Assembly: GCA_007845205.1 (NCBI GenBank)
Contig: SDRK01000001.1
Location: forward strand, 1 to 37,081
Origin: TM7 phylum sp. oral taxon 350
Lineage (GTDB): Bacteria > Patescibacteriota > Saccharimonadia > Saccharimonadales > Saccharimonadaceae
Length of the DNA stretch: 37,081 bases
Direction of reading: 5' to 3'
A model generated the notes under the pieces. That model did no database searches. It saw only the letters and a list, made by a program, of their open reading frames with translations, and was not told the origin of the DNA. Both the position numbers and the translations under genes were made by a program. Positions within the stretch are counted from its first letter, which is position 1. The number at the start of each line of letters is the position of its first letter. Shown in pieces: positions 9,417 to 14,517 of this stretch.

Positions 9417-10499
9417 TTACTTACTCTCAGGTGAAGTAATAAATCTTAGGTTTAGCTCTATATCTCTTACTGCTAAATCTATTTCCTTAGCTTTCTTATA
9501 AGCTTTACGAAGTTCAGAACTAGTTCCAAACTTATCGCTATTTATTAGTGAGCAAAGCGAATCTAATTTCCTTTCTCTAACAAAATCCCCAACTGTAATT
9601 GTCTGATCGACAAGAGATGGAAATAACTCTTTTGCTAAATAATGTTGTTTATGTCCCTTAAACGAAACTGCTAAAACTGGTTTCCTAGTTAGAATTGCTG
9701 CTATCATGCCGTGATATCTACCCGTAAGTACCGCATCGGCTTCACTATAGACATCTAACAACCGTTTTGAATCTTCAATAGTCTCAAAAGCTTCATATCT
9801 ACCACCAGTTAATTCAACTAGTTCTTTACTAAATTCCAAATCTTCTACTGCCTGATTTACGATTATAAAATCAAAATCATCCTTAATTTTTGGTAGCTCT
9901 TTCCTTAGGTATTCACGATACGCCTTGTAATTCTCTTCTAATTTTGGATCAATTTTGTTATTGGTATCATTACCTAATTTCCAATCAGCTAAAGATAATA
10001 AAATCTTTGGCTTATCATGATGCTCTTTTTTTAGTTGAACTGAATCTTTAAGTAAAAAAACTATATCCGATCCAGTAACTAGCCTTCCTTTATAATAAAA
10101 ATCATCTCTAATAATCTTAGAATCTCTTTCACCACGAGTCTCTATCATATCTAAATTTTTGAAAGCGTCTTCATATTTTTTCTTAGCTTCAACTGAAAAA
10201 ACATGTTGTACACCCATACCAAGCATATAAGTAGGAATACCTAAATGTTTTGCTCTTAAGATAATATCTATGTAATTATCTACATTCTCCATTACATAGT
10301 CATAAATTAAGCCGCCACCTCCAATAATAACGATATCGGAAGCCATAATATATTCACGCTTGTGTTGTTGGGTTAAAACAACCTCTACATTATCTATTTT
10401 TTTCTCTAAATACTCTTTTAATGTAACACCAATAAGATCGTCACCAACGTTCCCGCATCCGCTAGCACCAAAGATAGTAATTATCTTCTTTTTATTCAC
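9417..10499 (-). CDS. Polysaccharide pyruvyl transferase family protein (CsaB/WcaK-like)
   Basis: A 360-residue GT-B-like enzyme. It starts with IFGASGCGNVGDD (glycine-rich N-terminal motif) and has VIIGGGGLIYDY at about 57-68. It ends with a GRYHGMIAAILTRKPVLAVSF segment near 262-282, the family's most conserved block. Members transfer pyruvate from PEP onto sugars of cell-wall polymers; in CsaB this makes the ligand for SLH domains. Start is GTG directly after the TAA of the preceding gene, with GAGG upstream. It is the last gene of a three-gene unit with an ABC exporter ATPase, consistent with making or modifying a surface glycopolymer. The actual acceptor is unknown. Confidence 0.88.
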   Translation of the reverse strand: MNKKKIITIFGASGCGNVGDDLIGVTLKEYLEKKIDNVEVVLTQQHKREYIMASDIVIIGGGGLIYDYVMENVDNYIDIILRAKHLGIPTYMLGMGVQHVFSVEAKKKYEDAFKNLDMIETRGERDSKIIRDDFYYKGRLVTGSDIVFLLKDSVQLKKEHHDKPKILLSLADWKLGNDTNNKIDPKLEENYKAYREYLRKELPKIKDDFDFIIVNQAVEDLEFSKELVELTGGRYEAFETIEDSKRLLDVYSEADAVLTGRYHGMIAAILTRKPVLAVSFKGHKQHYLAKELFPSLVDQTITVGDFVRERKLDSLCSLINSDKFGTSSELRKAYKKAKEIDLAVRDIELNLRFITSPESK

Positions 10500-10679
10500 T
10501 TACCCTCGCTTAATTAAATTTAAATATATTCTTTTTAGAGCAAACCTTATGGGAGCTTTATGAATCCTATACATGTTGCTTCTCATGATTTTATATTTGC
10601 TAAGCAAAATCTCATGCTGTTTTTTTAGAAGTTCTTCACCTTCTAATTGAGATAGGTGTCTTACATCCTCATCTTTCAT
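10500..10679 (-). CDS. Small basic protein of the glycan cluster, unknown function
   Basis: A 59-residue ORF filling the exact gap between the ABC ATPase and the pyruvyl transferase. ATG at 10679 is preceded by GGAG, which sits inside the end of the ATPase gene. An in-frame start further upstream would overlap the ATPase and lacks an RBS. The protein is helical, acidic at the N-terminus and strongly basic at the C-terminus (APIRFALKRIYLNLIKRG), which could be a membrane-surface helix. No family recognised. Confidence 0.6.
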   Translation of the reverse strand: MKDEDVRHLSQLEGEELLKKQHEILLSKYKIMRSNMYRIHKAPIRFALKRIYLNLIKRG

Positions 10680-10680
10680 A

Positions 10681-11895
10681 CTAGCTCTCCTCCAACTCAA
10701 TAGAAGGTGTTATTGAAAAATTACTTAAATAGTTTTTAGCAATATCTACTTCTAAACAATTGTCCCAGTTGTCTAAAATAATTCCTCCCTGACTTTCGTC
10801 CATCCTAACTGTCAGATCAATTGAATATGTACCTGAACCAAAGATATTTGGCATTGTTATTTTTAAGGTTTTTTCTTGACCAGCTTTAACAACTATCTTT
10901 TTCTTGCGTTGTTCGGTATTAAATCCAGCTACCAACTTTCCCATAAAATCCATTGCTCGAAGACCAGCAACAATCTCTAAATCCTCGTCAGCATTGGATT
11001 TAAGCTTTAACTCTATTTCTATCTCATCATCAGTTTGTTTAACAACTTTTATTGATTTAGCTTCTACTTTTTTAGATCCCCAACGAGTTTCAACATCATC
11101 TTCTTCGCCATTCTCTTCCTGATCTTTTTCAGCTACATTAAACAACTTCAAATATTGATTTGCTATCTTATTTGCACTTCCTTGGTGCGTTATTTTACCT
11201 TCGTTAATTAAAATAGCTTCAGTACAAAACTCTCGTACCGCACTCATGTCGTGACTAACAAAAATTACTGTTTTATTAGCATTCTTTAAGTCTTTAAAGA
11301 ATCTATAACATTTACGTTGAAAATCAGCATCTCCCACTGCTAAAACTTCATCTACTAACAAGATATCTGCCTGAGACCTAGTAGCAACTGAAAATGCTAA
11401 GCGCACCTGCATACCACTGGAGTAATTCTTAAGTTTCTGATCCATAAAGTCTTCAAGTTCAGCAAACTTTACAATCTCATCATATTTTTCTTCAATCTCT
11501 TTTTTGTTAAATCCAAGTAAGGCACCGTTTAAAAATACATTTTCTCGCCCTGTTAGCTCTGGATTAAAACCAACTCCAAGTTCAATAAAAGGAACTAATT
11601 TTCCTTTATGTTTCACTTTTCCTTTAGTTGGTTGGTAAATTTCTGCCAGGATCTTAAGTAATGTACTTTTACCACTACCGTTACGTCCTAAAATTCCAAA
11701 AAATGCACCTTTTTTAACTTTAAAACTAATACCTCTTAAGGCGTGTTGAGTATCTACTTCTTTATCGTGCTTAGAAAAACTCTTAATAATTGCCGATTTT
11801 ACAGACTGCGATTTATCGTGAGGCAGATAGAAATCTTTATAGACGTTATCTACTTTTAAAACAATCTCTTGTTTTTTCGTTTTCTTCTTTTTCAC
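10681..11895 (-). CDS. ABC transporter ATPase for polysaccharide export (Wzt/TagH-like)
   Basis: A 404-residue protein. The ATPase domain spans residues 1-245, with Walker A GRNGSGKST at 70-78, signature SSGMQ at 159-163, Walker B ILLVDE at 178-183 and H-loop SHD at 214-216. LVPFIELGVGFNPELTGREN is typical of O-antigen/teichoic acid exporters. Residues 265-400 form a C-terminal beta domain like the Wzt carbohydrate-binding module, which selects finished glycan chains. The usual partner permease (Wzm/TagG) is not adjacent: the next gene upstream is divergent. Start GTG with AGGTGGAGA before it. The 187 bases upstream are AT-rich and contain the divergent promoter at 12047. Confidence 0.92.
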   Translation of the reverse strand: MKKKKTKKQEIVLKVDNVYKDFYLPHDKSQSVKSAIIKSFSKHDKEVDTQHALRGISFKVKKGAFFGILGRNGSGKSTLLKILAEIYQPTKGKVKHKGKLVPFIELGVGFNPELTGRENVFLNGALLGFNKKEIEEKYDEIVKFAELEDFMDQKLKNYSSGMQVRLAFSVATRSQADILLVDEVLAVGDADFQRKCYRFFKDLKNANKTVIFVSHDMSAVREFCTEAILINEGKITHQGSANKIANQYLKLFNVAEKDQEENGEEDDVETRWGSKKVEAKSIKVVKQTDDEIEIELKLKSNADEDLEIVAGLRAMDFMGKLVAGFNTEQRKKKIVVKAGQEKTLKITMPNIFGSGTYSIDLTVRMDESQGGIILDNWDNCLEVDIAKNYLSNFSITPSIELEES

Positions 11896-12082: not shown

Positions 12083-12778
12083 ATGAGTTTAATTGAAATA
12101 GTTGGGGTTATTCTGTTAGCTGGACTCATCCACGCTTCTTTTCAATTAAGCATTTCATCTTTAACTATCCTATCTTCAGGTCACTTAAAACTTTTAAACC
12201 CTAGAAGAAAACTAAGAGCTCTAACTAGATATTTTGTATTAGGTGTAATAACCACAACATTATTATTAATAACCTCATTCACCTATTTATTCTGGATTAA
12301 TTACGAAAATAATCCCGATCCAATGGTCACCGCTATTATTACCGGTTTAGGTGTTGGCCTTGGTGTATCAATATGGGCTTTTTACTACCAACGCTCTAAA
12401 GGCACTGTTTTATGGTTACCAAGAGATATGGCGAGTTTTATATCTAATCGTTCTAAAAAAACAGATAGCCTCTCTGAAGCTTTTGGTCTTGGTATGGTAA
12501 GTGTTATCGCTGAGCTACTATTTATCTTTGGACCTTTATCCTTAGCAGCTATTACCATTACAAAACTAAATCCTAATTACCAAGTACTAGCAATTATTCT
12601 CTACACACTTAGTGCAACTTCTTCCTTAGTACTTGTAGCGATTTTAGTTAATAAAAACGGTAAATTAGCAAAAATCCAAAAATGGCGAGAAGAAAATAAA
12701 AACTTCTTACAATTTATTGCCGGTACTGGGCTAATTATCCTATCTCTGTTTATTTATGTTTTTGAGGTATTGAAATAA
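12083..12778 (+). CDS. Polytopic membrane protein, unknown function
   Basis: A 231-residue protein with about six hydrophobic helices (near 5-28, 48-72, 80-102, 132-160, 168-190, 208-228). Small residues and a GxGxGxG patch (ITGLGVGLGVS) occur in the third helix. Topology is loosely like the LysE/CcdA type, but no diagnostic motif supports that. It heads an operon with the ATP-cone-like protein (12 bases downstream) and the degenerate flavoprotein, and the three probably function together. Confidence 0.75.
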   Translation: MSLIEIVGVILLAGLIHASFQLSISSLTILSSGHLKLLNPRRKLRALTRYFVLGVITTTLLLITSFTYLFWINYENNPDPMVTAIITGLGVGLGVSIWAFYYQRSKGTVLWLPRDMASFISNRSKKTDSLSEAFGLGMVSVIAELLFIFGPLSLAAITITKLNPNYQVLAIILYTLSATSSLVLVAILVNKNGKLAKIQKWREENKNFLQFIAGTGLIILSLFIYVFEVLK

Positions 12779-12790
12779 AGGGGTGCAAAA

Positions 12791-13066
12791 ATGAAAACAA
12801 ATATTTTAAAAATCAATCAAAATAGTAGCGAAGAATTTAAAAAAGGGAAAATCTTTAACGAAGTCTTCGGAGCTTGTTTATCTGCTAGTTGCTTGCAAGG
12901 AGAAGCCGAAACCATTGCTTCACATGTTTGCAATCAGGTAGAAGCTTGGGCTAATCAATTTTCCGAAATTACAGAAGATGATTTAAAAAGAAAAACTGTA
13001 TCTAGTTTGGAAAACTACCAACCAGATGCAGCTTACCTATACCAAAACGAAGCATTAACTATTTAA
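12791..13066 (+). CDS. Small ATP-cone-like protein
   Basis: A 91-residue protein preceded by AAAGGGG. The pattern F.xxKIFNEVFGACLSA...AETIASHVCNQVEAW...ITEDDLKRKTVSSLENYQPDAAYLY resembles the helical ATP-cone fold found in ribonucleotide reductases and NrdR, including the terminal AAYLY helix. The basic N-terminal beta-hairpin that normally starts an ATP-cone is weak here, so nucleotide binding is uncertain. Free-standing ATP-cones are unusual. Eight bases separate it from the flavoprotein gene, whose RBS AAGGAG spans the gap, so the two are coexpressed. Confidence 0.55.
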   Translation: MKTNILKINQNSSEEFKKGKIFNEVFGACLSASCLQGEAETIASHVCNQVEAWANQFSEITEDDLKRKTVSSLENYQPDAAYLYQNEALTI

Positions 13067-13074
13067 GGAGCAAA

Positions 13075-14448
13075 ATGGCAAGACAAAAATTTGATTTCGA
13101 TTTAATAGTTATTGGTTCAGGAGCAGGTGGCTCTGCAGCCGCTACAATATCGGCAGCGCTTGGCAAAAGGGTAGCTATTATTGAAAAAGATGATTTTGGT
13201 GGTGAATCACCCAATCTAGGAGACATCCCAATGTCTGCCATGCTTCAGACGGCTCAAATTTTCGACAGCGCTAAACATGGTGATCGATTTGGTTTAAGAA
13301 CTAACGCCTTAAGCTATAACTATCCATCCATACAAGAATGGAAAAAGTTAGCAGTTAAACGAACTGGCGCTGGTGGCAATCGCAATTATTATGAATCAAA
13401 AGGCATATCAACCTTTAAAGGTATTGCTAGATTTATCACCCCTCATGAAATTACTATCAATAGACGTCATTTGTCGGCAGAAAACTTTCTAATTGCTACT
13501 GGCTCTAATTTCTTTATTCCAAATATTCCAGGCCTTAGCGATGTTAACTTTCATACTATGCATAGTGCCTTAAATATCACTAGACCACCAAAAACCATGT
13601 TTATTATTGGCTCTAATTCTAGAGCGATTGAACTTGCAGAATTATTCTCTACTTTTGGCACAAAAGTTTACTTAGCAGACAGTTCGGCAAGAATCCTGCC
13701 AAACGAAGACGAAGAAGTAGGCCTTCTTTTAGATAAACATCTAAAAGAGGCAAAAGGTATTACTTTTCTAACCCACACTAGAGTACTTGAAGTCTCAAAG
13801 TCTTCTATCACTAAAAGAGTTGTAATTAGGCGTGGCGGTATCGAGCGATCCATTAATGTCGAAGAAGTTGTAGTATGTCTTGGCACTACACCAAATGTCG
13901 ATCTTGGACTAGAAAATGCCGATATTGAATACGATCCAACTGGTATTAAAGTAAATAATTATTTACAAACATCACAAAAACATATTTTCGCAGCTGGTGA
14001 TGTACTTGGAAGAAATTCTGAAACACAAGGTGCCTTAATGGAATCGCGAGTTGTTGCCTTTAATCTTTATCACCGCAATAAGATTATTCCAGACTACTTA
14101 GGGGCGCCAAGAATTACTTGGACAAATCCAAATGTAGTATCAATTGGTATGCAAGAAGACGATTGTCTAAAAAGAGATTTAAAAGTCAAAAAAGCAATTG
14201 CTCCACTAAATACCACGCCAAGATCTAACACAGCAGATTTTAGAGATGGCTTTGTTAAATTAATCGCAGATAAAAATAATGTTATTATCGGGGCCACTAT
14301 CGTTGCTCCAAACGGCGCCGAGATGGCTGGTGAGCTTACTTTAGCAGTAAGACTAGGCATGACAGCAGAACAGCTTAGAGAAACCCCACACGCCTTTTTA
14401 ACCTGGTCTGAAGCTATTCGTATTGCTGCTAGTAGATTAATCAATTAG
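13075..14448 (+). CDS. Pyridine nucleotide-disulfide oxidoreductase-fold flavoprotein lacking the catalytic residues
   Basis: A 457-residue protein with the full lipoamide dehydrogenase/mercuric reductase architecture. The FAD-binding GSGAGGSAA is at 14-22, a second Rossmann domain near 172-205, CLGTTPNVDLG, FAAGDVLG for the FAD ribityl side, and a C-terminal dimerisation domain. The redox machinery is gone: the CxxxxC positions are Ser45 and Asp50 (GGESPNLGDIP). The C-terminal HxHPTxxE motif reads H439-A-F-L-T-W-S-E446, so the catalytic His is Phe. The NAD glycine motif GxGxxG reads G179-S-N-S-R-A184. The frame is intact and codon use matches its neighbours, so it looks maintained rather than decaying. 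It may be a flavin-binding scaffold, a quinone/O2-type oxidase or a sensor; the activity is unknown. Confidence 0.85.
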   Translation: MARQKFDFDLIVIGSGAGGSAAATISAALGKRVAIIEKDDFGGESPNLGDIPMSAMLQTAQIFDSAKHGDRFGLRTNALSYNYPSIQEWKKLAVKRTGAGGNRNYYESKGISTFKGIARFITPHEITINRRHLSAENFLIATGSNFFIPNIPGLSDVNFHTMHSALNITRPPKTMFIIGSNSRAIELAELFSTFGTKVYLADSSARILPNEDEEVGLLLDKHLKEAKGITFLTHTRVLEVSKSSITKRVVIRRGGIERSINVEEVVVCLGTTPNVDLGLENADIEYDPTGIKVNNYLQTSQKHIFAAGDVLGRNSETQGALMESRVVAFNLYHRNKIIPDYLGAPRITWTNPNVVSIGMQEDDCLKRDLKVKKAIAPLNTTPRSNTADFRDGFVKLIADKNNVIIGATIVAPNGAEMAGELTLAVRLGMTAEQLRETPHAFLTWSEAIRIAASRLIN

Positions 14449-14480
14449 TTTTAAAATTAATCGAGATCAAAGCATCAAAA

Positions 14481-14503
14481 AAAACGCTCAAAATGAGCGT
14501 TTT
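14481..14503. terminator. Intrinsic terminator
   Basis: AAAACGCTCA / TGAGCGTTTT stem (10 bp) with AAA loop, T-rich on the 3' side. It ends the flavoprotein operon and could also stop the converging tRNA transcript. Confidence 0.85.
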
Positions 14504-14517
14504 TATAATTTCTAACT

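Follow-up and report, generated by a model that had tools for sequence, protein, structure and literature searches.

A cysteine-less disulfide-reductase homologue and its cysteine-less membrane partner in Saccharibacteria

A three-gene run in the window

The window, i.e., the whole stretch of 37,081 nucleotides that was analyzed, carries a tight run of three plus-strand genes encoding a 6-TM membrane protein of 231 aa (12083–12778), a free-standing ATP-cone-like protein of 91 aa (12791–13066), and a Cys-less homologue of the class I flavoprotein disulfide reductases of 457 aa (13075–14448), separated by gaps of 12 and 8 bases. As described in an earlier note on this DNA, the flavoprotein ORF is intact, with an ATG at 13075 and a stop codon at 14446–14448; the opposite strand of 13075–14448 is rich in stops. 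A stem-loop of 11 pairs lies just 3′ of the flavoprotein gene (14480–14504, plus strand), and its assignment as a terminator is suggestive only, the pattern scan having returned 3 sites against 2.2 expected by shuffle. The promoter scan gave no signal (8 sites, with 9.4 expected). Just upstream of the three genes, on the minus strand (9417–11895), genes for a polysaccharide pyruvyl transferase and a Wzt-like ABC ATPase were observed.

The window flavoprotein passed the Pfam cut-offs for Pyr_redox_2 (158.2 bits; cut-off 26.1) and Pyr_redox_dim (73.2 bits; cut-off 25.3), and its domain layout is that of the class I flavoprotein disulfide reductase superfamily. A sequence search of the PDB gave as best match the mercuric reductase of Metallosphaera sedula (4ywo, E 1e-63), with lipoamide dehydrogenase 1ebd at E 5e-60. 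The AlphaFold2 model (pLDDT 88.7, pTM 0.85) had its best fold match in the mercuric reductase 5x1y (E 1.5e-43, TM-score 0.91). Fold, FAD motifs, and dimerisation domain are common to the window protein and to class I enzymes such as lipoamide dehydrogenase and mercuric reductase (4ywo/5x1y). We conclude from the sequence that the product of 13075–14448 is an FAD protein with a disulfide-reductase fold, FAD binding being predicted from its intact motifs. It is the sole Pyr_redox_2 match in the window's own assembly, which is 67% complete and also encodes a thioredoxin.

The glycines G14, G16, and G19 of the FAD-binding GSGAGG motif region (residues 8–21; 13096–13137, plus strand) were invariant in the alignments, so this motif persists as had been claimed, and E37, G42, G43, D309, and E446, the Glu of the His-Glu dyad, are retained as well. 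The substitutions listed in the earlier note were recovered in an alignment with 1ebd, 4ywo, and relatives. S45 and D50 sit on the redox cysteines of the former CxxxxC (codons 45–50, S-P-N-L-G-D; 13207–13224, plus strand), F441 and L442 occupy the His-Pro positions of disulfide reductases (codons 441–442; 14395–14400, plus strand), and N181 and A184 align with two glycines of the former GxGxxG of the NAD(P) Rossmann motif (codons 179–184, G-S-N-S-R-A; 13609–13626, plus strand). The redox-active CxxxxC, looked for as the test of a class I enzyme, is thus replaced, and the catalytic His of HPT...E is missing with its Glu kept. Unlike lipoamide dehydrogenase and MerA, the window protein has no CxxxxC, no catalytic His, no C-terminal MerA Cys pair, and no complete set of NAD glycines.

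Mercuric reductase proper was rejected as an identity for this protein (298.7 bits against the cut-off of 454.45 for NCBIfam TIGR02053, with the C-terminal Cys pair and CxxxxC both absent from the window sequence), as was dihydrolipoyl dehydrogenase proper (TIGR01350, 310.2 bits against 408.8), a cut-off that the Cys-bearing relative L197 barely clears (409.1 bits; cut-off 408.8). SthA (soluble transhydrogenase) and PRK07845 (NAD(P)H-quinone dehydrogenase) have altered Cys sites and are a precedent in the same superfamily for non-disulfide acceptors; membership in either was likewise rejected (198 bits against a required 465 and 173 against 479, respectively).

The conservation check proposed in the earlier note for Ser45, Asp50, and Phe441 was made: S45, F441, and L442 were each invariant in 68/68 aligned rows, D at position 50 was found in 67/68, and E446 in 68/68, in a set that was retrieved by a mostly Cys-less query and is not a neutral sample. 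In a broader set of 91 rows, the 66 rows without a full Cys pair had Asp at position 50 in 57 cases, and Ser (39), Ala (10), Asn (7), or other residues (10) at position 45. Position 441 was F or Y in all 25 Cys-bearing rows, and, according to a published study, Phe occupies this position in M. sedula MerA and Tyr in Tn501 MerA, as against the His of glutathione reductase (PMC4500099). Since this Phe is shared with Cys-bearing relatives and with M. sedula MerA, Phe441 is, by this comparison, ancestral, and the missing His is therefore not part of the Cys-loss event. The glycines at 179, 181, and 184 were intact (GGG) in 75/91 rows, and the GNA pattern of the window occurred in 1/91; as judged from the alignment, the loss of NAD glycines is largely the window's own and recent, and with its broken motif this copy may bind NAD(P) less well or in a different manner. 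The proposal that all these elements had changed at once consequently gave way to a layered history, in which an ancestral Phe441 was followed by an older, clade-wide loss of Cys and by a recent loss of Gly.

Both operon partners that had been proposed proved real and conserved, the 6-TM gene being found upstream of the flavoprotein gene in 46/50 loci and the ATP-cone gene in 46/50 (L044 lies at a contig start). Against PF03477 (cut-off 25.8 bits), the window ATP-cone copy scored 18.1 bits and its orthologues L200, L012, and L210 scored 36.0, 35.7, and 22.2 bits, so that L200 and L012 exceed the cut-off of the ATP-cone domain known from ribonucleotide reductases and NrdR. Unlike in those proteins, the ATP-cone is here encoded by a free-standing gene between the membrane-protein and flavoprotein genes.

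The window 6-TM protein contains no cysteine, HASFQLSIS and AELLFIF replacing the DSINPCAIG and VELPCTG of Cys-bearing relatives. In the window's taxonomic family, 0/39 loci have the membrane Cys pair, a conserved HASFQLSVS stretch taking its place, and His17 and His33 are conserved around the former motif. Comparison of the Cys-less 6-TM family with the Cys-bearing family (hhalign probability 98.6, E 9.5e-16) indicates that the two forms are homologous. Cys-bearing relatives match SfLAP (PF11139, E 7e-9) and DsbD (PRK00293, E 2.9e-5), and one Cys-less relative matches DsbD_TM (E 0.0014); the relatives' DsbD matches (E 1e-3 to 3e-5) lie below curated cut-offs, and the window copy gave no match to the DsbD profiles. 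The helical AF2 model (pLDDT 88) had no Foldseek match in the PDB with E under 0.001. VIA-align returned at best unrelated transporters (Z 8.3, a level common for helical bundles) in a list without CcdA, an absence that does not exclude a CcdA relationship, and phmmer with the Cys-bearing TM protein found nothing in the PDB. As the model has no significant PDB fold match, the CcdA link rests on sequence profiles, which identify the 6-TM partner as a probable CcdA/DsbD-like protein stripped of its cysteines, a relationship that is new here and had been missed by the earlier note. In contrast to the CcdA/DsbD family, the window copy has no cysteine and is therefore incapable of dithiol transfer. 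In other Patescibacteria, homologues of the Cys-bearing 6-TM protein are fused to thioredoxin-like CxxC domains (L289, L292) or adjacent to one (L288).

Distribution and selection of the family

A related-locus search with a single-protein query gave no locus, and a search with an alignment query succeeded. The alignment search named the best 80 of 140 loci ranked by similarity to the Cys-less query, and their titles are nearly all Candidatus Saccharibacteria, Saccharimonadia, Patescibacteria, or plain "bacterium". Matches were found in 54/81 genomes, and 50 were taken as true family members after motif reading, comprising 40/49 genomes in the window's taxonomic family and 10/32 elsewhere in the order; these counts exclude other superfamily members (L050, L052–L055, L057, and L058) as well as L056, a repeat of L024. 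In a larger draw, 271/295 genomes of the window's taxonomic family matched at E 1e-20, the matches in at least two of them (G021 and G030) being to paralogues only. At the level of the class, 95/147 genomes matched at E 1e-60, and at the level of the phylum, 29/239 matched at E 1e-80.

CxxxxC was present in 12 of the 50 members, namely 5/40 inside the window's taxonomic family and 7/10 outside. The loss of the cysteines is thus common to a Saccharibacteria clade (35/40 protein-family members in the window's taxonomic family), and the members of this Cys-less family are incapable of dithiol chemistry at the flavin. The window flavoprotein is 55–61% identical to its 18 nearest relatives, and the neighbouring Mur-ligase-like protein is 45–51% identical to its counterparts in 11 genomes of the same taxonomic family. 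The earlier note had proposed that close relatives with normal CxxxxC and HPT motifs would mark a single degenerating copy. Such relatives exist as regards CxxxxC, which is carried by L019, L020, L026, L027, and L033 at 46–55% identity to the window protein, but these have HAFP or HAYP and no HPT.

In parallel, dN/dS was estimated between close pairs of Cys-less relatives. For the flavoprotein, values ranged from 0.011 to 0.074 with a median of 0.048 in the 17 pairs, of 60 tried, that passed the dS filter; 4 of these 17 repeat the same genome under two ids. These values, as well as those of at most 0.106 for the 6-TM gene and at most 0.116 for the ATP-cone gene, are the relatives' only, the nearest relative of the window being about 60% identical. 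The three remaining genes of the module are shown to be under strong purifying selection in the relatives, which upholds the earlier expectation of selection on the protein family. A single degenerating copy is ruled out by the clade-wide distribution of the Cys-less state together with the low dN/dS.

Co-occurrence of the genes, also suggested as a check, was analyzed in 48 hand-picked genomes: 20 without the flavoprotein, taken from the 24 without a match in the draw of 295, 25 taken as flavoprotein-positive, and three exceptions. The 6-TM gene was found in 0 of the 20 absent genomes and in 23 of the 25 positive ones, the other two (G021 and G030) being those that hold only paralogues. In the exceptions G024, G126, and G152, the flavoprotein is present and no 6-TM gene was detected.

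Relatives with intact and partly stripped relays

Outside the window's taxonomic family, Cys-bearing flavoprotein relatives share an operon with a CcdA-like protein carrying NPC...LPC, and the ATP-cone gene is found with them. These forms (DSINPCAIG, VELPCTG) occurred in 5/7 loci with a 6-TM gene outside that family; in the larger set, NPC and LPC were both present in 13 of the 80 rows having a TM protein. Immediately upstream, loci with both Cys pairs encode a secreted protein that is anchored in the membrane and has invariant HxH, CG, and HEH motifs and further Cys, referred to as the HWH protein (e.g., L200:4999-5925 and L197:8628-9512), which has no confident Pfam or NCBIfam family and which, from its sequence, looks metal- or thiol-active. 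It occurs in G507, a genome from a different class, and in Saccharibacteria outside the window's taxonomic family. It was found in 0/151 genomes of that family; a search that detected it in 20/118 genomes of the order, none of them from the window's taxonomic family, served as the positive control. A divergently oriented P-type ATPase gene, its product nearest to Ca-type models, lies next to the intact relay (e.g., L197:9567-12290 and 15 similar loci); wide loci contained it in 16 cases outside the window's taxonomic family and in 0/9 cases within. In G507, outside the class, genes for the secreted protein, a CcdA-like protein, and an ATP-cone protein stand in a row without a flavoprotein gene (L287:779-2473).

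The numbers of cysteines in the flavoprotein and the TM protein, respectively, were 2/2 in 13 of the 91 rows, 0/0 in 57, 2/0 in 5, 1/1 in 1, 1/0 in 2, and 0/1 in 2, with no TM protein found in 11. In a tree built without the trait columns and without L274, an odd 343-aa form, a Cys-less clade of 61 rows (SH-aLRT 99) was nested inside rows with a flavoprotein Cys pair and no membrane Cys (97), themselves inside rows with both pairs. No row of the 61-row clade has both cysteines, and L235 has C45. The basal members L019, L020, L026, and L027, and also L033, all from the window's taxonomic family, retain the flavoprotein pair and have no membrane Cys, and in L022 and L207 the Cys pair is gone and HAFP is still there. 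By parsimony, the flavoprotein pair changed 5 times on the tree and the membrane pair 3 times; an independent-pairs test of linked Cys loss had 2–3 pairs only and no power (sign test p 0.5).

Several genomes hold the relay in partly stripped form. G608 (L275:623-3880) is half-way, with one Cys in the flavoprotein (GEGPNWAC), one in the 6-TM protein (NPY...LIC), and partly changed HWH motifs. G070 (L282) has C45 only, lacks the membrane pair, and encodes an HWH protein from which most histidine motifs are missing. In G064 (L274), the HWH protein is decayed, the flavoprotein is shortened, and a single membrane Cys remains. The order read from the tree suggests that the stripping was stepwise, the secreted protein and membrane cysteines going first and the flavoprotein cysteines later. 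As the flavoprotein changed in the course of this stepwise stripping of the entire relay, by which a whole membrane module was converted, the significance of its change exceeds that of a single odd protein.

Possible function of the stripped module

Motifs and gene neighbours were used to infer an ancestral route, in which NAD(P)H would have reduced the FAD and the electrons would then have reached a secreted Cys/His protein by way of first the CxxxxC pair and then the two CcdA-like membrane cysteines. The lineage leading to the window would have dispensed with the secreted protein and the membrane Cys before it lost the flavoprotein pair. The explanation that we favor, with modest confidence, is that this former transmembrane dithiol relay became a thiol-independent, FAD-based membrane module of Saccharibacteria with the flavoprotein as its FAD subunit. 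In most members of the protein family, the flavin would be reduced by NAD(P)H, and the reduced flavin would hand electrons straight to a non-thiol acceptor; alternatively, the contact of the flavoprotein with its 6-TM partner may change with the flavin redox state. Asp50, at the position of the flavin-side cysteine, would be a conserved new active-site residue, and the ATP-cone protein may make the module responsive to ATP/dATP. A more detailed version, in which the His-bearing 6-TM protein receives electrons or a redox signal from the Asp50-bearing flavin, free of thiols and gated by adenine nucleotides, in most of one taxonomic family, is put forward tentatively and is in itself rather unlikely. 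To our knowledge, such thiol-free coupling is not known for any member of the disulfide-reductase fold.

Among experimentally studied proteins, the closest parallel found is Irc15p of yeast, a homologue of lipoamide dehydrogenase without the Cys pair; according to the excerpted report, it is an FAD-binding protein that accepts electrons from NADH/NADPH and donates them to menadione and dyes, not to disulfides (PMC6296175). Irc15p resembles the window protein in its relationship to lipoamide dehydrogenase, in having other residues at both redox Cys positions, and in not being a disulfide reductase; it differs in its Tyr/Ala at the Cys sites, its retained His-Glu, its eukaryotic origin, and its association with microtubules, and the same excerpt names no 6-TM or ATP-cone partner (PMC6296175). 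With regard to the acceptor, quinone biosynthesis genes were reported as absent from the soil CPR genomes of one study and cytochrome bo3 operons as present in some Saccharibacteria (PMC8407418). No title or abstract opening in the open-licence literature searched dealt with this Saccharibacteria module, which is still a variant of protein families already known.

It is also possible, though distinctly less probable than the module described above, that the flavoprotein is a non-catalytic FAD/nucleotide sensor, i.e., a subunit with a structural or redox-sensing role by which the 6-TM protein is gated, the ATP-cone protein serving as a second sensor. The absence of the catalytic Cys and His, the loss of the NAD glycines in the window copy, the conserved His17 and His33 that surround the site of the former Cys motif in the TM protein, and the retention of an acid at position 50, whereas positions 45 and 441–442 drift in divergent genera, are all consistent with such a role. 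However, GGG in 75/91 rows and E446 in 68/68 exceed the needs of a pure scaffold. A mercuric- or metal-reductase-like enzyme working without cysteines appears improbable: MerA structures are the best PDB matches by sequence (4ywo) and by fold (5x1y), Phe441 is as in M. sedula MerA (PMC4500099), and a P-type cation ATPase adjoins Cys-bearing relatives, but the NCBIfam MerA cut-off was missed (298.7 of 454.45), the C-terminal Cys pair is absent, and in the window's taxonomic family the ATPase was found in 0/9 wide loci and the His/Cys secreted protein in 0/151 genomes. Least probable is slow decay, with the module a chance-kept relic on its way out of reduced genomes, since the lineages without all or parts of the module and the altered NAD motif and long end branch (0.53) of the window copy are outweighed by the matches in 271/295 genomes of the taxonomic family (a few of them paralogues), the median dN/dS of 0.048 over 17 close pairs (4 repeating a genome), new motifs near invariant in 68 rows, and a flavoprotein 55–61% identical to its 18 nearest relatives vs 45–51% for the Mur-ligase-like neighbour (11 genomes).

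Intact, half-stripped, and fully stripped versions of the module are present in related genomes, so that the change can be followed and tested stepwise. Saccharibacteria have tiny genomes, and their energy and redox metabolism is poorly understood; a module that is kept by most of one taxonomic family with its ancestral chemistry stripped stands out as a strong candidate for a core function that has so far escaped notice.
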